Source: a virus
IMG/VR virus record: IMGVR_UViG_3300043313_002136
Coordinates: 1 to 24,930 of that record
Direction: 5' to 3' (one strand)
Length of the DNA: 24,930 bases
Position numbers and translations under genes: made by a program. Positions 4,534 to 23,673 of the stretch are shown here, in pieces. Position 1 is the stretch's first letter, and every line of letters begins with the position of its first letter. The notes below the pieces were generated by a model. That model was not told where the DNA came from. It ran no database searches and was given only the letters and a program-made list of their open reading frames with translations.

Positions 4534-5973
4534 ATGCCACTACCCGGAACCACTGTCAGTCTGCTCGATGTTCCTCCGCCGATCAGCGCACCAACGGATA
4601 CGACCGTCTGGTTCGTTGCCGGACTCACCGACCAGGGACCGCTGTTCCCGGTCAAGGTTCGGAGCATGGCGGAGTTTACGGCCAGGTACGGTCCGAGGGT
4701 CACATACTCGGTCCTGTATGACGCTCTGGACGTCTTCTTCCGGGAAGGCGGCAGCAGCGCATATGTAAGCAGGGTGGTAGGCCCGGCTCCGACGTTCGGG
4801 TCAAAGACCCTGCTGGACGGCGTTGCGGCTGTCTCGCTCACCGTTACCGCCATTGGTCCTGGCGCCTACTCGACCGGTATCAAGGTAGGGGTCGTTGCAG
4901 GTCAGGCAGGCGGATCGTACCAGATCCAGGTCACCGACCTCACCAACGTCGTTCTGGACCAGTCAGGTGATCTGCTCACACAGAACGATGCGGTGAACTG
5001 GGGGCTGCAGAGCAACTACGTGCGCATCGCGCTGGGCGCATCGCTGCTCAACCCGGTCGTCGTCGCTCCGGCTGCTTTGTCAGCTGGAACAGACGACAGG
5101 GCCAACGTCACCGAGACACAGTGGCTGAACGCTATCAATGCATTCACCATCGTTCTCGGGCCTGGCCAGGTCAGCATGCCCGGTCGCTCTACGGACGCGG
5201 CTCACGTCAATCTGCTCGCGCATGCACAGGCGAACAGACGGGTGGCCTTGCTTGATCTGGCCGACACAGCTGTCGTAGCAACGCTTACGACGGCCGTGAC
5301 CAACGCTCGCATTGGCAATCAGCGGTACGGAGCAACCTTCGCTCCGTGGCTTCTGGCCCCAGGCGTCTTTCCGTCGACCATTCGGACGATTCCGCCGTCT
5401 GCACTGGTTGCCGGGTTGATCGCTAGGAATGAGGACGAGCTTGGCCCGGATGCTCCGGCTGCCGGAGACAGGGGTATCGCTCGTTACATCAACGGTCTGT
5501 CGCAGGCGGTCTTCACTGACGCGCAGAGGCAGGTACTGAACGACGGCGGCGTGAACGTCATTCTCAATCGCTTCGGCAACATGGAAGTGTACGGATGGCG
5601 ATCTCTCGTCAATGCCCTGATTGATCCGAACTGGCTTGACTTCGGCAATTCTCGGCTGTACATGGCGATCGCTGCTGATGCCGACGAGCTTGCCGAGCAG
5701 TTCGTGTTCGGAGTGATCGACGGGCAGGGCAAGTTGCAGTCAGAGTTCGGAGGTGCTCTGGCAGCAATGCTGATGCGGTACTACACGCAGGGTGCGTTGT
5801 TCGGTGCTACGCCTGATGATGCCTTCTACGTAGACGTAGGGCCGCAGGTGAACACGCCAGCAACGATCCAGGCGAACGAGCTACACGCGCTGCTCAATAT
5901 CAGGATGTCCCCGATGGCGGAGGTCGTTGTGATCCAGATCGTGAAGACCCCCGTAACTCAGGCGGTGAGCTGA
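4534..5973 (+). CDS. contractile tail sheath protein
   Basis: This 479-residue protein starts right after the upstream TAG; GAGGAGG lies just before the ATG. The N-terminus (PGTTVSLLDVPPPISAPTDT, WFVAGLTDQGP, then VRSMAEFTARYGPR) and a following FFREGGSSAYVSRVVG are the classic sheath opening. A variable central domain follows (about residues 90-260). The C-terminus carries VNVILNRFGNMEVYGWRSL, a quaternary handshake region and LHALLNIRMSPMAEVVVI, typical of the conserved C-terminal sheath domain. It polymerises around the tube and contracts to drive it through the host envelope. The tube gene follows after one base. This is the clearest marker that the virion is a myovirus. Confidence 0.95.
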   Translation: MPLPGTTVSLLDVPPPISAPTDTTVWFVAGLTDQGPLFPVKVRSMAEFTARYGPRVTYSVLYDALDVFFREGGSSAYVSRVVGPAPTFGSKTLLDGVAAVSLTVTAIGPGAYSTGIKVGVVAGQAGGSYQIQVTDLTNVVLDQSGDLLTQNDAVNWGLQSNYVRIALGASLLNPVVVAPAALSAGTDDRANVTETQWLNAINAFTIVLGPGQVSMPGRSTDAAHVNLLAHAQANRRVALLDLADTAVVATLTTAVTNARIGNQRYGATFAPWLLAPGVFPSTIRTIPPSALVAGLIARNEDELGPDAPAAGDRGIARYINGLSQAVFTDAQRQVLNDGGVNVILNRFGNMEVYGWRSLVNALIDPNWLDFGNSRLYMAIAADADELAEQFVFGVIDGQGKLQSEFGGALAAMLMRYYTQGALFGATPDDAFYVDVGPQVNTPATIQANELHALLNIRMSPMAEVVVIQIVKTPVTQAVS

Positions 5974-9159: not shown

Positions 9160-9821
9160 TGCCGACCCAAGAACGACACTTCGTGACGTTCGAGGCAGAC
9201 GGGATCGGTTCGCTGCGCATTCTCAAAGGAGAGGGAGCGCCGAAGTCATCATCCTATGACGCTGGGTGGAATGTTGTAAGCAGGCCGCATCGGGTCGGTT
9301 TGACCCAGTGGGCTGGTGCTGATCCGATCAGGATGTCTCTCCAAGTCATCTTTGAAGGCTGGACAGATGGCGAGGGGCAGGAGATCAGGATTAGTAAGTT
9401 GCGACGGATGGCCATGCCGCAAGGCACGGACGAGCCGCCGATCATCAGCGTATCTGGGCACGGCATCCCGAACCTTGGACCGAAGCGCTGGGTCATTGAG
9501 AGCTTGGAGGAAGGCGACAACGTTCTCTGGGACGACGAACCGGGTAGCGGCTCCATCGTCAGACTTCGCCAAGACTTCACTGTCAATCTCTTGCAGTACG
9601 TTGCCGAGGACAGGACTGCCTTCGCCAGCATCGAGGCAGCCAAGCCAGGTGGTGGTGCGTGGCCCAAGCATTACACCTGGAAGAAGGGTGACACGCTACA
9701 GAAGGTTGCGGCGAAGTTCTACCACAACTCCAAGCTGTGGAAGAAGATCGCGAATGCCAACAACATCCGTGATCCGAAGAACATCAAGCCTGGCAAGGTG
9801 TTGATCATTCCGAAGCCATGA
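9159..9821 (+). CDS. LysM-containing baseplate protein
   Basis: This 220-residue protein starts at a GTG sharing a base with the upstream TAG. Residues 1-155 form a beta-rich structural domain (GIGSLRILKGEG ... HRVGLTQWAGADPIRMSLQVIFEGW). Residues 172-217 form a LysM domain: YTWKKGDTLQKVAAKFYHNS, then LWKKIANANNIRDPKNIKPG and KVLIIP. LysM binds N-acetylglucosamine polymers; in phage baseplate proteins (for example gp53-like and eCIS counterparts) it helps join the hub to the tube. It lies between tape measure and hub and overlaps the hub gene by ATGA, which fits a hub-associated role. Confidence 0.85.
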   Translation: MPTQERHFVTFEADGIGSLRILKGEGAPKSSSYDAGWNVVSRPHRVGLTQWAGADPIRMSLQVIFEGWTDGEGQEIRISKLRRMAMPQGTDEPPIISVSGHGIPNLGPKRWVIESLEEGDNVLWDDEPGSGSIVRLRQDFTVNLLQYVAEDRTAFASIEAAKPGGGAWPKHYTWKKGDTLQKVAAKFYHNSKLWKKIANANNIRDPKNIKPGKVLIIPKP

Positions 9822-11962
9822 CCACTGCGACTCAACTCACGGCACGCCAGAAGCTCGATCTCTCCACGCTCAAGCTCACGCAGAAGGAGCTCATGGGCGA
9901 TGACATCGACATCAACCATATCAACCTTCAGATCAAAAACGTCTTCGGGGTAGACATTGCAGGGGCAATCACGGCCGGAAGCATCGAGCGCACTATCGAG
10001 GGTGCAAGCACACTCAACCTGGACGTCTTCGATCGTGACAGGAAGCTGCTGCGCTCAGGGAGGCTGGCTGCTCGGACTGACGTCAGAATTGATGGCCTAT
10101 GGTTCAGGCTCGCAGCTGTTAACAAGGAGAGCGACACGCTCTCTCTGACCTTTGAGGATCGCGAGATCGCTATCTTGCGAACCTACTTCAGCATCATCAA
10201 GGCCTCTGCAGCCACGGCGCGACAAAGAACGACCAGGGCCGAGTTCATTCTTCGGATGATTCGAGAAGTCAAGGAGTTTCGCATTCCGTGGGTCATTCCA
10301 GAGCTTGACGTAGTACAGCCAATCGAAGAGGACCAGCAGACCAAACAGCCGCTAGGCGGTAACGATCAGAATGCGATCAAACGCGGGAAGGGGATTCCGC
10401 ACGGAGCCGGGGAAGACTCTTTCCCAGACAAGGCACGACAGCACCAGTATTCCTCTCGGGTCATTCCAGGCCTAAGGGTCAAGGGTGAAAGGATGACGAA
10501 CTACCAGATCGATTGCACAAATGCTGTCCTGAACGCCGCTGCTTCTATGGGCTGCACCCGTCCGGAGCTTGTGATGACCGTGATGTGCGGCATCACAGAG
10601 AGCCGCTTGCAGAACCTGCGAGGAGGAGACAGAGACAGCGTCGGCTTCTTTCAGCAACGAGCCAGCCAGGGATGGCCTGCTAGCCGTAACCTTGCCCGAG
10701 ACACGAAAGCATTCATCACAGCGCTGAAGACTTACGAGGGTCGTCATCCTCACTTCGATTACAACGATCTGATTCAGGGTGTTCAGAACTCCGGTACTCC
10801 TAACGCTTACGGGCCGCACCGGAACGAGGCAGAGCGTATCGTCACTGCATACGGAGAGAGCGCTGACTTTGCCAATGACAATGCGATGCAGTCCTTCGGT
10901 GGTACGGCTGCGGACTACGAGTTCTATCGTGGTGTTCCGCCTGCACTGGGCCTACACAACTGGGGTCGTGAGAATAGTTGGACCTGTATACAGCGTCTGG
11001 CCTCTGAGGTCAACTTGCGAGCCTTCTTCGTCAGCGGCACGTTCTACTACATCAGCGAAATTGATCTGATGAAGAGCAAGCCTGCCGCAATCATCTCGGA
11101 GGACACTAAGGGAGTCGAGGACATCAGCGGCAACTATGACACGGGCAAGACAGGAAGCGATCTGCGCGTCACAGCGCGAATGGGTCGGTGGGCTGCTCCG
11201 CCTGGAAGCGTCATACAGATCAAGGAGATGGGTCCTTGGAACGGGCGCTGGCTAGTGGCCAACGTGCAGCGTAGTCTATTCGACAGTCTAGGAACCATTA
11301 CGTTGAAGAAGGCTCGTCCCACCTGGCCGGAGCCGATCGGAGATACAGCCGGACAGAAGCGAGCGCAACAGACTTCAAGCCCATACACGATGGCTCCCAC
11401 TCCTTCCATACCGGACTCGCCCGGCGGAGATGCAGCGCATGCGGCCAAGCTCCTGCTCGCTTATCACAACCAGGGCAAGTATCGCGACGATAACGGGCAG
11501 CAGATCGAGCAGTTGAAGAAGATCGCTGCTGGGCAGAAGCTCAAGAACCAGTGCGGCAATCATGTGAGCATGAACTCATTTGTGCTCAACGGTCTCATCC
11601 AGCTCATCGAGGCAGGCCTCTGGGTCGGAACGTTTGCTCTGTGCGAGGACCACAGCTGCAATGAGGGGCAGCATCCCAAGGGTCAGGCTGCTGATATCTC
11701 CTCGCTGGGCAGCCCATTGACAGGCTGGCATGCCTTGAACGCTTCAAGCCAGGTGGCCACTGGTCTGGCCAAGCAGGCAATGAAGATCCTTGGCCCTACC
11801 TCCTGGGACCTAATCTGCAACGGGATCGGCAGGTATGATAGCAGCGTGCAAGCGCTGCAGAGAGACAACGGACACGTCCGGGGCGGGATCTGGGAGACAG
11901 ATCACACCAATCACATCCACTATGGCGTGTCTCCGGGGCGCGCTCCCGAGGACAGATCTTGA
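9818..11962 (+). CDS. baseplate hub protein with two putative cell-wall hydrolase domains
   Basis: This 714-residue protein is coupled to the LysM gene by an ATGA overlap. Residues 35-155 resemble the first half of a gpD/gp27-type hub (NVFGVDIAGAITAGSIERTIEG ... LDVFDRDRKLL ... WFRLAAVNKESDTLSLTFEDREI). Residues about 225-347 form a lysozyme/transglycosylase-like insert, with candidate catalytic Glu261 in GITESRLQN and SVGFFQQRASQGW, a motif common in actinobacterial and actinophage muralytic proteins. Hub-like sequence resumes at about 385-500. Residues 575-704 look like a metal peptidase of the M15/D-Ala-D-Ala type: H619-P-K-G-Q-A-A-D626 and H699-I-H701. The protein would form the central hub and locally open peptidoglycan during injection. 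The hydrolase calls are pattern-based. Confidence 0.8.
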   Translation: MTTATQLTARQKLDLSTLKLTQKELMGDDIDINHINLQIKNVFGVDIAGAITAGSIERTIEGASTLNLDVFDRDRKLLRSGRLAARTDVRIDGLWFRLAAVNKESDTLSLTFEDREIAILRTYFSIIKASAATARQRTTRAEFILRMIREVKEFRIPWVIPELDVVQPIEEDQQTKQPLGGNDQNAIKRGKGIPHGAGEDSFPDKARQHQYSSRVIPGLRVKGERMTNYQIDCTNAVLNAAASMGCTRPELVMTVMCGITESRLQNLRGGDRDSVGFFQQRASQGWPASRNLARDTKAFITALKTYEGRHPHFDYNDLIQGVQNSGTPNAYGPHRNEAERIVTAYGESADFANDNAMQSFGGTAADYEFYRGVPPALGLHNWGRENSWTCIQRLASEVNLRAFFVSGTFYYISEIDLMKSKPAAIISEDTKGVEDISGNYDTGKTGSDLRVTARMGRWAAPPGSVIQIKEMGPWNGRWLVANVQRSLFDSLGTITLKKARPTWPEPIGDTAGQKRAQQTSSPYTMAPTPSIPDSPGGDAAHAAKLLLAYHNQGKYRDDNGQQIEQLKKIAAGQKLKNQCGNHVSMNSFVLNGLIQLIEAGLWVGTFALCEDHSCNEGQHPKGQAADISSLGSPLTGWHALNASSQVATGLAKQAMKILGPTSWDLICNGIGRYDSSVQALQRDNGHVRGGIWETDHTNHIHYGVSPGRAPEDRS

Positions 11963-16602: not shown

Positions 16603-16797
16603 ATGGCAGACAACGGCAACAACCAGAATGGCTGGAGAGCCACGAAAGAGAAGATTCTGATGTCTGCCGGCCTGAGCATCATCGGAGTTGAACTGATTCA
16701 TGCAGAACTCTTTTCGGGAACGTTCCATCTTGAGTTTTTGCTGGCCGGTTTAGCTCTTTGCGGAGTCAGCATCGCCCAGTGGGGCGATAGAAAGTGA
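16603..16797 (+). CDS. small two-helix membrane protein, candidate holin
   Basis: This 64-residue protein starts at an ATG 20 bases after the fibre stop. The N-terminus is polar (MADNGNNQNGWRATKEK). Two hydrophobic stretches follow, about residues 18-36 (ILMSAGLSIIGVELIHAEL) and 43-60 (HLEFLLAGLALCGVSIAQW), and the end is charged (GDRK). Two membrane helices, short length and position after the fibre fit a class II-like holin, but there is no adjacent endolysin on this strand, so the holin role is inferred. Confidence 0.6.
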   Translation: MADNGNNQNGWRATKEKILMSAGLSIIGVELIHAELFSGTFHLEFLLAGLALCGVSIAQWGDRK

Positions 16798-16807
16798 AGG
16801 AGGCGAT

Positions 16808-16960
16808 ATGATCGCCGTGAGTTTTTGGAAGCCTGATATCACAGCGAACATGCATCAGTTCCGCAAGTGGGCGCACAGCAACGCACTCACGCTGACTTTC
16901 CTCTCAGCGATGTTCATCATTACTTGGATCGTAATCGTGGTGGCTAACTATGCCACATGA
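16808..16960 (+). CDS. 50-residue single-pass membrane protein
   Basis: This is a hand-found small frame with an excellent AAGGAGG ribosome-binding site at 16797-16803 and an ATG at 16808. Residues 1-28 are mixed and basic (FWKP ... FRKWAHSN). Residues about 29-47 form one hydrophobic helix (LTFLSAMFIITWIVIVVAN). The end is YAT. It follows the two-helix protein by ten bases and overlaps the next membrane protein gene by eleven bases, so it is part of a compact membrane-protein cassette. No family is recognised. Confidence 0.75.
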   Translation: MIAVSFWKPDITANMHQFRKWAHSNALTLTFLSAMFIITWIVIVVANYAT

Positions 16961-17330
16961 TGTAGAATTGGAGAGACGTGTGGAAGAGGCAAACGGTTTC
17001 GAGGTAAGGGTTGCTGAGGTCTTGCACCAGAAGCACAGGTGGCGCTGGAGGGCGCTGACTATCTGGATCATTCTCTTCACGTTAACAGTGATCGTGATGT
17101 ACAGGAGCAACCACCACTTAGTTGGAGAGAACCGGTCAAGGATTGCTGACATTCAAAAGTCCCGGATAGACTCGTGTCAGGCTAACTATGAAGGCATCAG
17201 GAAAGTTGCTATCAGCCTCTACCCGCCTGCGAAGATCCGTAGTGTCGCGCAAGCTGAGAGTCTGTCCAAGCTCAACCAGACAATCAAAGGCCTGAAGTCC
17301 AGATGTGCTAAGCAAACGAAGCTCAAATAG
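16950..17330 (+). CDS. single-pass membrane protein with helical outer domain, spanin-like layout
   Basis: This 126-residue protein starts at an ATG inside the previous gene (11-base overlap), suggesting coupled translation. Residues 1-33 are charged (ERRVEEANGFEVRVAEVLHQ). One membrane helix lies at about 35-51 (ALTIWIILFTLTVIVMY). About 75 residues of mostly helical, basic sequence follow, with two Cys residues (C76, C109) that could pair. The layout, N-terminal anchor then a helical domain outside the membrane, resembles i-spanins or Rz-like proteins. No signature supports that firmly, and in a Gram-positive host a classic spanin would not be expected. Family unknown. Confidence 0.65.
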   Translation: MPHDVELERRVEEANGFEVRVAEVLHQKHRWRWRALTIWIILFTLTVIVMYRSNHHLVGENRSRIADIQKSRIDSCQANYEGIRKVAISLYPPAKIRSVAQAESLSKLNQTIKGLKSRCAKQTKLK

Positions 17331-17339
17331 GGGTGCGAC

Positions 17340-17639
17340 GTGTCTGAAAGAGATCAGGCAGGATCAGCAGGAGAAGCAGGACAGCCGGGAGAAGGGCCGA
17401 ATGGACGAGAGGGCGGAAGAGGCGGCGCTGGTGGTCGTGGTGGCGCAGGAGACCCCGAGGGCAAAGGAGGCGCTGGTGGCGCCGGTGGACGAGGCGCCAC
17501 GGGGAGGCAGGGGCCACAGGGCAACCAGGGCAACCCCGGCGATCCGGGCCGAGAAGGTTTGCCTCCGGCCTGGAAGATGGCGCTGACCATCTGGATGGTC
17601 TGCATCACAGCTGCGTTGATCTATCTGATCATCAAGTGA
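17340..17639 (+). CDS. collagen-like protein with C-terminal membrane anchor
   Basis: This 99-residue protein begins at GTG 17340, nine bases after the previous stop. Residues about 8-72 consist of Gly-x-y or x-y-Gly triplets (GSA GEA GQP, then PNG REG GRG GAG ... RQG PQG NQG NPG DPG REG). There is one break at DPE near residue 38. Residues 76-98 are a membrane helix (AWKMALTIWMVCITAALIYLIIK) with three or fewer residues after it. Collagen-like triplets in phage proteins usually form trimeric rods, so a trimer standing off a membrane is plausible. Which side of the membrane the Gly-rich part faces cannot be decided. The last gene of the plus-strand block. Confidence 0.8.
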   Translation: MSERDQAGSAGEAGQPGEGPNGREGGRGGAGGRGGAGDPEGKGGAGGAGGRGATGRQGPQGNQGNPGDPGREGLPPAWKMALTIWMVCITAALIYLIIK

Positions 17640-19695: not shown

Positions 19696-20256
19696 TTACG
19701 GGCAGAGACGTCCGTACTTTGTCTCCCACCCAGGGTCGAATTGCAGCCCGCACCTGTAGTAGCCGGGACTGTCGTACCAGTTGCCGCCGTTCTCGCAGTT
19801 GACGGTGTCTTGCCAGCTGCCCCCTCCGTCGAACGGATCGGGGCAGTTCGGCCAGGGATCTCCGGAGCTTGCAGCGCCGATGATGTTTGCGACCCTGATC
19901 TGACGTTGGACCCAGTAGTTGTATGTGCTGTACCAGAGACGATGCTCCGCATTGTTGATGTGCTGCGTGGCATACCTCTTCAGCCACGTCATGTCGCGAT
20001 GCAATACCGCTCTGTCTTGCTTGCTCCCTGCCCAGGGATGGGACTGTAGGAATCCCAGGGCTGCTCGTGCGTGATGCATGTTCTTCTTGCCACACGCGAG
20101 CTCCTGCTTGGCGGACTGCTTGCCTGAGCAGGTAGCTGCCATTCGCGCTTGTACTGGAGAAGTCAGCACCAGAATGGCTAGTGCTGCCAGGATGGGGATT
20201 ATGAAGTACCTCAGACCTTCCCTTTCCGATAAATGCGGTGGCCCTGGCGTGGTCAC
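19696..20256 (-). CDS. exported Rpf-like muralytic protein
   Basis: This 186-residue protein has its GTG start at 20254-20256 with only a weak ribosome-binding site; no better in-frame start is seen. Residues 17-33 form a hydrophobic signal or anchor (FIIPILAALAILVLTS), with possible cleavage after VQA at residue 37. A helical, basic middle follows. Residues 147-182 match the resuscitation-promoting-factor/lysozyme-like pattern: SWQDTVNCENGGNW with candidate catalytic Glu155, then YYRCGLQFDPGWETKYG. Rpf domains cleave peptidoglycan glycan strands in Actinobacteria. Here the domain ends soon after the GLQF motif, shorter than usual, with extra Cys (154, 169, 185). It may be an endolysin or a host-wall modifier. 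Confidence 0.7.
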   Translation of the reverse strand: MTTPGPPHLSEREGLRYFIIPILAALAILVLTSPVQARMAATCSGKQSAKQELACGKKNMHHARAALGFLQSHPWAGSKQDRAVLHRDMTWLKRYATQHINNAEHRLWYSTYNYWVQRQIRVANIIGAASSGDPWPNCPDPFDGGGSWQDTVNCENGGNWYDSPGYYRCGLQFDPGWETKYGRLCP

Positions 20257-20285
20257 AGGGCCACCCTACACATGCACTTGCTTGA

Positions 20286-20375
20286 CTACTCCTCGCCGTC
20301 GTCCCCCGGCTCTGGATCCGGCTCGGGAGCGGGTGGGTCTGCCGGAGGATCGGCAGGGGTCTCGAAGATCCGCAT
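20286..20375 (-). CDS. 29-residue Pro/acidic peptide
   Basis: This small frame was found by hand. A near-consensus AGGAGGT ribosome-binding site lies about six bases before the ATG at 20373-20375. The product, MRIFETPADPPADPPAPEPD followed by PEPGDDGEE, is Pro- and acid-rich and disordered. It starts 17 bases after the dnaE stop. The strong site argues that it is translated. Function unknown. Confidence 0.6.
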   Translation of the reverse strand: MRIFETPADPPADPPAPEPDPEPGDDGEE

Positions 20376-20391: not shown

Positions 20392-23300
20392 TCACATCTC
20401 CGGGTCGATGATCCACATCTCGCTGATGGTGATCTGGCGAGTGGGCATCCACCCTGGTTTGACTCCCCGAACAAGGACGAGATCCTTGCCGGGCCTGATC
20501 TTCCAGATCAGGTCGCGCCACTTGGGATAGCGCCACCTATCGCAACGTAGCCCGATCTGATCTGATTCATCATCTCCGACCATGACACACCACTCGTTCA
20601 GGTGCGGGTCCTTGATCGGCTTGCCGTCAAGCGTCATCTTCTCCATGTCGATCTCAGCGCCCTTGGCCTGGTTGAACTCAAATAGGTCTCTAACGTTGCG
20701 CGTGTGGATGACGCCTAGCCATACCACCTCGATGTCGTCGCCGGTGCTGTACGGGAGATCGGCAGCGACGTGCGTAGGCCGAGGCACCGGCAGCTTCTCG
20801 TTGCTGATCTCCTCCTTGACGTGCGCGATGGCTTTGTCCATCCAGAAGGCCTCGAACGGATCCTCTTGCTTGACGAATGCCTGCATCGTCTCAAGCGTCT
20901 TCTCTCCGATCCCTTTGACCTTGAGCAGATCATCCCAGTCGGTCAAGCCATGCTCTTCACGGTAGGCAATGATGTTCCTGGCTGTTGCTTCGCCGACCTT
21001 GGGAATCTCGTCGAATCCTGCCTGAATCCCGTCATCGTCGCGCACCCACGTGATGCCTGATGTTTTCGGGTGCGGAGTTTTGACTGCCATCCTGCGACCG
21101 AACTTGTTCGTGTCTCGTAGGAGACGCTTGACCTTTTCTTCCATGCCTGTGATCTTCAGCATTTCCGTGAAGAAGAGCGAAGGCTCGTGCCGCTTGAACC
21201 ACATCGTGTGAAAGCCAAGCATGCTGTAGGCTACCGCGTGGCTAGCATTGAAGGCGTAGGAGCCTGCCGTGATGCAGAGGCCCCAGATGCGCCTGGCCGT
21301 CTCCTCGTCCATGTTGTGTAGCCGCTGTGCTCCTTCGAGGAAACGAGACCAGCGACGGTTGAACTCTTGCTCGCCAATCTTGCGGGAGATGATGCGCCGG
21401 ACCTCGGCTCTATGCGTCCAGTCAAAGTCACCGATCTCGCCCAGGATGCGGAGAATCTGCTCCTGGTACACGACCTGGTACTTGGTGTGCTGTGTAATGC
21501 TAGCGAGGGCAGGGTGGATGAGTTCCGGTTCTTTGCGGCCCATCTTGATGTCGATGTACTCGTTCGCGCTGCCGTTGTGCAACGGACCTGGTCGGGCAAG
21601 AGCGTTGACATCGGCAAGCTCCATGAAGTTGTCTGGTTGCAGCGCACCGTTGACGTAACGCATGGCCCTGCCTTCAAACTGGAAGATACCGTTGACGTCG
21701 TTGATCTTGAAACCGTGCAGCGTTTCCTGGTCATCCAGCGGTAGGTTGTACAGGTCGTCGAGTGACCAGCCCATCTCGAGCCGCATCTTGTTGATGGCGG
21801 TCATATTGCTGAGGCCGAGGTAGTCCAGCTTGAGCAGACCCTTCTCCTCGGCATCGTACTTGTCCATGCTGATGACTCTTACCGTCTCACCCTTGACCAC
21901 GCGTTCGTAGACAGCAGCTACTTCTTCAATAGACCCCGTAGATACCACAAGGCCAGCTGCATGCACTCCGAAGCCCTTGACGTTGCCCTCGAGATCCATG
22001 GCCACGGCGAGATCCGGATAACGCTCAAAGACGTCACCCGCAACATCAAACTGATCCACAGTATCTTCGATCGTAGCACTAGCGCGTAGGTCACCTGAGC
22101 TCCTCTCAATCAGAACATCCTTGACTTTGTCTACTTCGTACTTCGGGACGCCGTAAACTCTTGCAGCGTCATCCAACGAATTCTTGGCCTTGAATCTCGT
22201 GAAAGTTCCGACGTTAGAGACACAATCTCTCCCGTACTTACCGACAAGATAGTCACGGACTTCACCACGCCGCTCCGAATCAAAGTCCAGGTCAATATCG
22301 GGGAGATCCTCACGCGTGACGTCGATGAATCTCTCGAAGACCAGATCCGGATATAGCATGGGATTGACCTCAGTGATACGGAGGAGCCAACAAACCAGAC
22401 TCCCAGCAGCGCTCCCACGGGCAGGTCCGACTGCGACGTCATGATCCTTCGCCCAGCGAACAGAATCGCTAACAATGAGGAAGTAGTCAACAAAGTCCTT
22501 GTCTTCGATGATCCGCATCTCATGACGTAGCCTTTCCTTGTATCGCTCGCTCTCGCGCGCGGGTAGCTTATCGCATCCCCGGTAGCGCCACCCGTCCTTG
22601 ATCCAGTCACGCCATAGCTCCACACCGGTGCTGTACCCCTCCGGAAGACGATAGCGCACCATGGGAAGGGAAGGAAGCTCTACGGTGCAGCGCTGAGCAA
22701 TCTCTTCTGTGTTGAGAATAGAGCGCACCGCCTGCTGCCGAGTCAAGCCGGTGGCTATGAGCTTGCGCACCACCATGTTGTCGTTCCAGGGCGGACAGAG
22801 GTTCTCTGAGTATCCCCACTCACGCGACATGTCTTCCAGGCTACGCTTCTCTCCTGGACGAATGTTGTGTAAGACCTGCTGGATTTCCTTCTCTTCTGGC
22901 ACTGTGTAGTGGCAGTCAAAGGTCGTGACGAGTGGGATGCCGAGATCTTCAGCGATCAGAGCCAGTTGTGGGTTGGCGTCCCTGGTCGCTTCCAGCTGAG
23001 GGAAAGCCTGGACTTCGATGTAGTAAGCGTCACCAAGTGCTCGCTTATACTGCCGGGCAACGCGGTGCGCTCTTTGGTAACTCGCATCCTCGGGCGCGAT
23101 GTGCTTACCGCCCATGAGCGACGTGAACAGTTCGGACCCCTGACAGCCGCTGAGGACAACGAGACCTTTGCGATGCGCCTGAAGCATTCTGTGATCTGCG
23201 GTAGGTTCATAGTAAAAGCCCTCCGAGAATGTCTGGCTGACCAAGCTCAGGAGGTTACGATAGCCCTCCTGATTCTCGGCCAACACGGTTAAGTGATTCT

Positions 23301-23673
23301 TCCGCTGCGTTGCGTTCTCCCCTACCTCTCCGCAGTAGAGCTCTACCCCGAACAACGGCTTGATGCCGTGCTTCTTGGCGTGCTTCTCCAGCTGCACATG
23401 CGAGGAGATATTGCCATGCTCCGTGAGCGCGAGGGTGCCCATGCCGATCTCGGCAGCACGTCGCACATGTGCCTCGGGCACCGCGTAGCCGTCCAGGTAG
23501 CTGAACGTGCTGTGGTGGTGGAGGCTCGCGAATGTCATGTCCTTGCTGCGCTGAGGAGCACGACGGGTGCGCTGGGCTTTACGAACGAGCTTCGGCGTCT
23601 CGTGATCACAGTCCGTCTTGCGCGACGGAACGCGATACTGAAGCTCGTCTAGGCTCTGATCTCTACGCGGCAC
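20392..23673 (-). CDS. dnaE: DNA polymerase III alpha subunit (DnaE-type) with intact PHP site
   Basis: This 1093-residue protein is the phage replicative polymerase. The PHP domain covers residues 48-260. Its nine expected metal ligands are all present: H52, H54, D61, H86, E111, H127, C177, D253 and H255. The catalytic core has GPARGSAAGSLV (416-427), the Asp pair D461/D463 in DIDLDF, and D617 in KLDYLGL. Tandem HhH motifs lie near 888-930 (IPKVGEATARNII, VKGIGEKTLETM), and an OB-like C-terminus follows. The GTG at 23671-23673 directly follows the stop of the upstream peptide gene, with GGAG seven bases away. Met46 is where most family members begin, so residues 1-45 are an unusual basic extension or the start is later. 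Length is close to E. coli DnaE (1160). Confidence 0.95.
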   Translation of the reverse strand: MPRRDQSLDELQYRVPSRKTDCDHETPKLVRKAQRTRRAPQRSKDMTFASLHHHSTFSYLDGYAVPEAHVRRAAEIGMGTLALTEHGNISSHVQLEKHAKKHGIKPLFGVELYCGEVGENATQRKNHLTVLAENQEGYRNLLSLVSQTFSEGFYYEPTADHRMLQAHRKGLVVLSGCQGSELFTSLMGGKHIAPEDASYQRAHRVARQYKRALGDAYYIEVQAFPQLEATRDANPQLALIAEDLGIPLVTTFDCHYTVPEEKEIQQVLHNIRPGEKRSLEDMSREWGYSENLCPPWNDNMVVRKLIATGLTRQQAVRSILNTEEIAQRCTVELPSLPMVRYRLPEGYSTGVELWRDWIKDGWRYRGCDKLPARESERYKERLRHEMRIIEDKDFVDYFLIVSDSVRWAKDHDVAVGPARGSAAGSLVCWLLRITEVNPMLYPDLVFERFIDVTREDLPDIDLDFDSERRGEVRDYLVGKYGRDCVSNVGTFTRFKAKNSLDDAARVYGVPKYEVDKVKDVLIERSSGDLRASATIEDTVDQFDVAGDVFERYPDLAVAMDLEGNVKGFGVHAAGLVVSTGSIEEVAAVYERVVKGETVRVISMDKYDAEEKGLLKLDYLGLSNMTAINKMRLEMGWSLDDLYNLPLDDQETLHGFKINDVNGIFQFEGRAMRYVNGALQPDNFMELADVNALARPGPLHNGSANEYIDIKMGRKEPELIHPALASITQHTKYQVVYQEQILRILGEIGDFDWTHRAEVRRIISRKIGEQEFNRRWSRFLEGAQRLHNMDEETARRIWGLCITAGSYAFNASHAVAYSMLGFHTMWFKRHEPSLFFTEMLKITGMEEKVKRLLRDTNKFGRRMAVKTPHPKTSGITWVRDDDGIQAGFDEIPKVGEATARNIIAYREEHGLTDWDDLLKVKGIGEKTLETMQAFVKQEDPFEAFWMDKAIAHVKEEISNEKLPVPRPTHVAADLPYSTGDDIEVVWLGVIHTRNVRDLFEFNQAKGAEIDMEKMTLDGKPIKDPHLNEWCVMVGDDESDQIGLRCDRWRYPKWRDLIWKIRPGKDLVLVRGVKPGWMPTRQITISEMWIIDPEM

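Follow-up and report, generated by a model that had tools for sequence, protein, structure and literature searches.

The gene considered here occupies positions 19696-20256, on the minus strand, of the window, by which we mean the whole stretch of viral DNA that was analysed (24,930 nucleotides; IMG/VR record IMGVR_UViG_3300043313_002136). It was delimited as an open reading frame (ORF) and from its relatives in seven phage contigs. Its reading frame is intact and, as called, encodes 186 amino acids, with a hydrophobic segment at the N-terminus and the motifs CENGGNW (containing Glu155) and GLQFDPGW near the end. A dnaE-type DNA polymerase III alpha gene (20392-23673, minus strand; identified with Pfam and PHROGs) lies directly upstream and an HU-like gene lies downstream, the gene under study being flanked by a small ORF on each side. 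The gene thyX is found upstream of dnaE, and the structural genes occupy the opposite strand. No holin gene adjoins the gene in the window. The original prediction had placed it in a replication block away from any holin, and this description holds, the arrangement being similar in related phages. Between dnaE and the gene, a mini-ORF of 29 amino acids rich in Pro, Asp and Glu (MRIFETPADPPADPPAPEPDPEPGDDGEE; 20286-20375, minus strand) displays a strong GAGGAGG ribosome-binding site.

The annotated GTG start at 20256 falls inside a hairpin formed by a perfect 10-bp inverted repeat (GGTGGCCCTG / CAGGGCCACC; 20237-20265), which may serve in regulation or act as a terminator lacking a T-run. Several relatives open with Met-Arg followed by a signal peptide, and the counterpart of this opening in the window is the CTG at 20214 (residue 15), which is preceded by AAGGGAAGG. 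Because the GTG lies in the hairpin and several relatives begin in this way, the CTG is favoured over the GTG and may be the true start, in which case the protein has 172 residues; only the first 14 residues are affected by this choice. A putative signal peptide (MRYFIIPILAALAILVLTSPVQA, residues 15-37; 20146-20214, minus strand) was read by eye and ends at the cleavage-like site VQA^R. Similar N-termini were recognized by eye in L003, L005, L008 and L010, and a typical signal pattern was seen in most members of the family; the AlphaFold2 (AF2) model of the whole window protein contains a helix at residues 11-30. The hydrophobic segment that had led to the protein being called secreted or anchored is thus present, its export remaining putative. 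The following region (residues 45-111; 19924-20124, minus strand) is a variable helical spacer according to the alignment and to the whole-protein AF2 model (block pLDDT 73-89). The stretch between signal and core differs in length and sequence among the members, and the spacer is almost missing from L009.

Order of the two halves of the Rpf domain

The C-terminal region resembles the resuscitation-promoting factor (Rpf) domain PF06737, represented by RpfB, RpfC and RpfE of M. tuberculosis (PDB 3eo5, 2n5z/4ow1 and 4cge). The shared features are a Glu following a Cys in helix 1, the WPxC partner cysteine, the GGNW and GLQF motifs, the hydrophobic pocket, a helix 4 with the motif QI..A and a secretion signal, which is putative in the window protein. 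Using this single protein as query against the PDB, phmmer detected RpfB with an E-value of 0.001, on the first half of the Rpf domain only. The Pfam profile PF06737 aligned residues 147-178 with positions 6-39 of its 77 positions, at 17.5 bits for a threshold of 27. The other members of the family also remained below this threshold (13.9-21.8 bits or no match), and with PHROGs and NCBIfam, too, the match is limited to the first half of the domain. The domain, which had been described as short with extra cysteines, looks short because linear profiles see one of its halves; the half that they miss precedes the motif and occupies residues 117-138. The core is a complete one in permuted form; the extra cysteines do exist, as a second pair specific to this form.

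The same protein type was detected by scans of viral contigs in seven further contigs (L002, L003, L005, L006, L008, L009 and L011). These are contigs of soil phages that come from at least four metagenomes besides that of the window. L011 is cut by the end of its contig, so that seven complete proteins are available, including that of the window. The halves are swapped in all eight members, and seven of the sequences extend to the C-terminal end. The core shared by the permuted members reads [QI..A..I...S..DPWPNCPDP]-linker-[SW.DTV.CENGGNW.DSPGYYRCGLQFDP.WE..YGRLCP-stop]. In the window, the Rpf C-terminal half (helix 4 and WPxC) comes first, at residues 117-138 (QRQIRVANIIGAASSGDPWPNC; 19843-19908). 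It is followed by the linker PDPFDGGGS (residues 139-147; 19816-19842), which connects the old C-terminus to the old N-terminus and differs in length between relatives, by the Rpf N-terminal half at residues 148-182 (WQDTVNCENGGNWYDSPGYYRCGLQFDPGWETKYG; 19711-19815), and by a new C-terminal tail RLCP (19699-19710) containing Cys185 and ending at the stop codon (all on the minus strand).

A profile of the permuted core was compared with 177,635 distinct PDB sequences, and Rpf proteins occupied the first eight places. The best match was RpfC, with an E-value of 3.7e-7 for the whole, and its two parts were swapped: profile positions 34-69 aligned with residues 7-43 of the chain and positions 5-27 with residues 55-77. 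The Rpf-like pattern around Glu155 that had originally been noticed is confirmed by these searches. With hhalign, a template of 43 non-redundant canonical viral Rpf domains gave in its native order two swapped matches (scores 37.4 and 30.1), residues 117-138 aligning with template positions 50-71 (E 1.6e-5) and residues 148-182 with positions 1-36 (E 4.1e-7), both E-values being those for a single template. When the template was duplicated or rotated, one unbroken alignment across the joint was obtained (scores 57.6 and 58.3). The canonical alignment was also rotated column by column, and the score summed over the seven complete permuted proteins peaked for a cut before helix 4 (130.6, versus 105.1 for the native order).

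A direct comparison is provided by L010 (IMGVR_UViG_3300003321_000059, 4762-5250, contig G007), which contains near-identical peptides in the other order, SSWQATVKCENGGNWNDSPGYFYLGLQFDPGTW... being first and ...SPEDQVINATWTAKNSSADPWPNCPDPYWG at the C-terminus. Like the permuted proteins, L010 has a signal peptide, a helical spacer and the peptides W.ATVKCENGGNWNDSPGY..GLQFDPG and DPWPNCPDPY; unlike them, it is in canonical order. It passes the PF06737 threshold (31.2 bits, profile positions 4-77 of 77), matches RpfC across the whole domain (E 8.5e-9) and gave its best score near zero rotation in the rotation test. With tblastn, the window protein aligned with G007 in two swapped segments, residues 134-177 with positions 4987-5124 and residues 123-144 with positions 5185-5250. 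In each of the seven complete permuted proteins, the upstream part aligned with the C-terminal half of L010, and none of 3000 shuffles did so as well. In a weaker test on single sequences, where a rotated profile was used and the upstream residues were shuffled, the window (4/2000 and 6/1000), L006 and L009 were significant, and L002, L003, L005 and L008 were not. From its sequence, L010 is the unpermuted form of this protein.

Two other explanations of the locus were considered. In the first, the locus would encode an Rpf half-domain that is truncated or decaying, devoid of its second half and inactive, as could be suspected from the partial matches of Pfam, PHROGs and NCBIfam. This explanation is very improbable, and it was dropped when the second half was found upstream: the same ending occurs in the seven contigs that reach the C-terminus, and the core, with its catalytic Glu, its cysteine pair and its pocket residues, is kept at a dN/dS of about 0.1. 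For three pairs, the values were about 0.07-0.14 at a nearly saturated dS; the upstream part varies far more than the core. In the second, two unrelated short motifs would have been brought together by chance, or the contig would be chimeric. Each half alone comprises only 22-36 residues; however, the arrangement recurs in contigs from at least four metagenomes other than that of the window, the reading frame is unbroken, and Rpf, matched through both halves, tops the profile search of the whole PDB, so that an artefact is scarcely credible. We conclude from these comparisons that the window domain is a complete Rpf-type domain that is circularly permuted, composed of helix 4 with the WPNC end, a linker and the CENGGNW...GLQF half. 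The domain is homologous to Rpf, yet not an ordinary PF06737 member, because it fails both the threshold and the linear order of this family.

Further members were sought by other means. A DNA pattern for the swapped order, independent of the family, recovered five members that were already known and, by chance, one match out of frame (L142), and the pattern search of the genome collection yielded only two spurious matches (L012 and L013). Among the sequenced phages and plasmids searched, only canonical Rpf or unrelated proteins were detected (E ~0.2 or worse), and the permuted form was not found in any sequenced isolate. A profile restricted to the helix-4 half (26 positions) was too short and missed the permuted proteins among 2216 ORFs. 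The peptide RESGGDP of L002 was considered as a second, SLT-type catalytic motif and rejected: its Glu is not conserved (Ala, Asp or Ser in relatives) and it lies within the helix-4 half.

Predicted fold and active site

In RpfC, the catalytic Glu16 belongs to helix 1 (Trp9-Glu16), helix 4 extends from Arg54 to Gln68, and the NMR structure shows that the Cys15-Cys76 disulfide ties the C-terminal region to helix 1 beside the catalytic site; replacement of the cysteines impairs activity, and the disulfide is needed for full activity (PMC4648573). An ordinary Rpf chain runs from helix 1 through the GLQF stretch to helix 4 and WPxC, whose disulfide returns to helix 1 by the active site. Relative to this chain, the permuted protein has its halves swapped: the break is in the loop that precedes helix 4, and a short linker connects the former ends, which the disulfide already keeps close to each other. 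In our view, this is about the mildest permutation site possible for the fold. The permuted form likely arose when the domain was duplicated in tandem and its outer halves were then lost; the unpermuted form is represented by L010.

The active site would be rebuilt largely unchanged. Glu155, present in the CExGGNW motif and invariant in all members (codon GAG, 19792-19794, minus strand), corresponds to RpfB Glu292 and, by the mapping taken via PMC4648573, to RpfC Glu16. According to hhalign and the PDB profile, Cys154 and Cys138 align with the RpfC pair Cys15-Cys76 and are predicted to be bonded. Of the eight RpfC pocket residues listed in PMC4648573 and mapped through the alignments, seven are retained or conservatively changed: Trp21, Leu33, Phe35, Ile58, Val60, Val64 and Trp73 correspond to Trp160, Leu171, Phe173, Ile120, Val122, Ile126 and Trp135, and Val12 is replaced by Thr151. 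The loop beside the active site is altered, SPGYYRCG being found in place of TGNGYYGG; it is one residue shorter than in Rpf and contains the new Cys169, and the C-terminal CP tail contains Cys185. Since both cysteines occur in every permuted member that extends to the C-terminus and neither occurs in L010, they probably form a pair that staples the new C-terminus. L009 (5788-6198), which has hardly any helical spacer, contains an 11-residue insertion in the loop just after the catalytic CEN motif.

An AF2 model of the permuted core has a pLDDT of 92.7 and a pTM of 0.83, obtained from an alignment in which the permuted relatives were combined with half-domain pieces of canonical Rpf, left unpaired and positioned by sequence. 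Because this alignment embeds the permutation assumption, the model supports the permuted fold, short of proof. When the whole protein was modelled from the eight relatives only, the core was poorly resolved (block pLDDT 46-78) and the model matched generic helical hairpins only. The comparison of a predicted structure with Rpf had been proposed with the original prediction. In this comparison, the 14 PDB matches of the core model found by Foldseek were all Rpf chains. In Foldseek and VIA alignments, mostly the second half of the model was aligned (about 40 residues at about 2 A, Z 2.4), with RpfB (region 283-330), RpfC and RpfE and nothing but Rpf. Such a half-domain alignment is expected, because both programs keep the chain order.

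A secreted muralytic activity of Rpf type is likely, because the catalytic Glu, the pocket and the cysteine pair are kept. Alternatively, the permuted domain could be non-cleaving and bind peptidoglycan or muropeptides as a decoy, an inhibitor or a block to superinfection at the cell surface. A small cleft domain with a signal would suit such a binder, as would the altered SPGYYRCG loop beside the active site and the 11-residue insertion of L009 at this place. The invariant Glu155 and the kept pocket would, however, be needless for binding alone, and we consider a pure binder improbable.

Genomic location and candidate roles

In the long contigs examined in full, the permuted gene lies among DNA-replication genes and away from lysis genes, and it is on the replication strand in all four contigs with divergent blocks. 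G003, which contains L005, is a relative of the window phage (DnaE 62.7% identity, sheath 48%), and there dnaE, the permuted gene and thyX follow each other on one strand. G002 and G005 have no detectable relative of the window DnaE; the permuted gene is on the strand of the polymerase A and uracil-glycosylase genes, opposite the late genes, together with a helicase gene in G002. Both blocks are on one strand in G006 (L009), and DNA methylase genes stand beside the permuted gene in L002 and L006. By analogy, an actinobacterial host is plausible, because the closest DnaE and sheath proteins among the matches listed belong to phages of Arthrobacter, Microbacterium, Gordonia and Brevibacterium.

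Several other features of these phages were noted. A 714-aa baseplate/hub-like protein of the window (9818-11962, plus strand) matches tape-measure and endolysin PHROGs at residues 226-347, contains the peptide HTNHIHYG near its end and is probably a virion-associated wall hydrolase, as judged from these matches. Collagen-like Gly-X-Y proteins occur in three phages with the permuted gene (window 17340-17639, plus strand; L003 383-1489; L006 6913-8769), and in L003 one such gene is located two genes before it. In L006, a short repeat (VMVGPGTPxR when translated) is found at 1824, 3119 and 3768, within or close to the beginning of three neighbouring ORFs that include the permuted Rpf gene; this repeat is probably a regulatory element rather than coding.

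Phage-encoded exported wall hydrolases are known in the form of signal-bearing or SAR endolysins, and the original prediction allowed that the protein, if made late, may be the endolysin. As a phage endolysin or accessory lysis enzyme, it would use its own export signal and work with late-made holins. This is compatible with the existence of signal-bearing endolysins, with the fact that no endolysin gene was identified in the 25-kb fragment represented by the window, with the small proteins having membrane-like segments at 16603-17639 (no PHROG match for the two tested) and with the canonical L010, which lies between tail and replication genes, just after the tail genes, so that the location is not uniform in the wider family. 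Unlike signal-bearing and SAR endolysins, the permuted protein has an Rpf-type permuted domain and is encoded with replication genes, immediately behind dnaE in both the window and G003; in these two contigs it is not in a lysis cassette with a holin. Moreover, separate endolysin-like genes are present in the late blocks of G005 (PHROG 17214, E 2.2e-10) and of G002, where an r1t-type holin gene adjoins a weak endolysin-like match. The permuted protein is therefore probably not the main lysin in G002 and G005, the two contigs to which this argument applies, the window being a fragment. The endolysin proposal is thus weakened, and we regard a lysis function as possible but rather unlikely.

We favour a secreted peptidoglycan-cleaving enzyme with a circularly permuted Rpf unit (lysozyme/transglycosylase-like), acting as a wall factor made before the lysis genes, and we estimate the probability of this reading at about 0.75; timing and role are its least certain parts. 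The enzyme would be exported by its N-terminal signal and would probably cut the glycan strands of the host wall. Being encoded with replication genes, it would probably be made before the lysis genes, and it would act on the host wall as a remodelling or growth factor, not as the main endolysin. This role is proposed because of the gene location alone. We rank wall remodelling or resuscitation by an early product first, accessory lysis second and a non-cleaving binder third.

Comparison with known proteins and significance

A close parallel among known phage proteins is PHROG 29757, a phage transglycosylase found for example in Rhodococcus phage Trina, which is, as here, a small secreted-looking protein with an Rpf domain; similar proteins exist in Weasels2, NiceHouse and Streptomyces phage BRock. 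In contrast to the permuted protein, it has the canonical order and a full PF06737 match (119.8 bits for Trina). In Rhodococcus phages, the genes for these canonical Rpf-domain proteins are next to or near thyX (Dorin, Trina, Weasels2 and NiceHouse; L014, L015, L023 and L024, respectively), and the position of an Rpf gene beside nucleotide-metabolism genes is therefore not unique to the window. The Rpf domain itself is known. For the permuted arrangement we found no earlier report: in the literature searched, which was largely open-access, nothing linked circular permutation with resuscitation-promoting factors, and we came across no natural permutant of the lysozyme fold.

Rpf is a small wall enzyme that has been studied intensively for its part in tuberculosis dormancy. 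A natural permutant in which the active site is kept while the chain ends are relocated reveals which links the fold can do without, and it can readily serve as a scaffold on which to probe what the disulfide and the ends contribute. As the linear profiles of Pfam, PHROGs and NCBIfam see only half of the domain, other permuted wall enzymes may lie unrecognized among the "hypothetical" proteins of phages. A broader and speculative proposal, which we consider unlikely as it stands, is that phages make this permuted enzyme of the lysozyme superfamily early and secrete it onto the walls of their own or neighbouring hosts, raising the number of productive hosts in soil. If true, an infected cell's enzyme would stimulate growth or wake dormant cells. 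The placement of the gene with dnaE and thyX, and that of canonical Rpf in a like position in Rhodococcus phages, make it directly testable whether phages manipulate slow or dormant hosts by means of Rpf-like factors.
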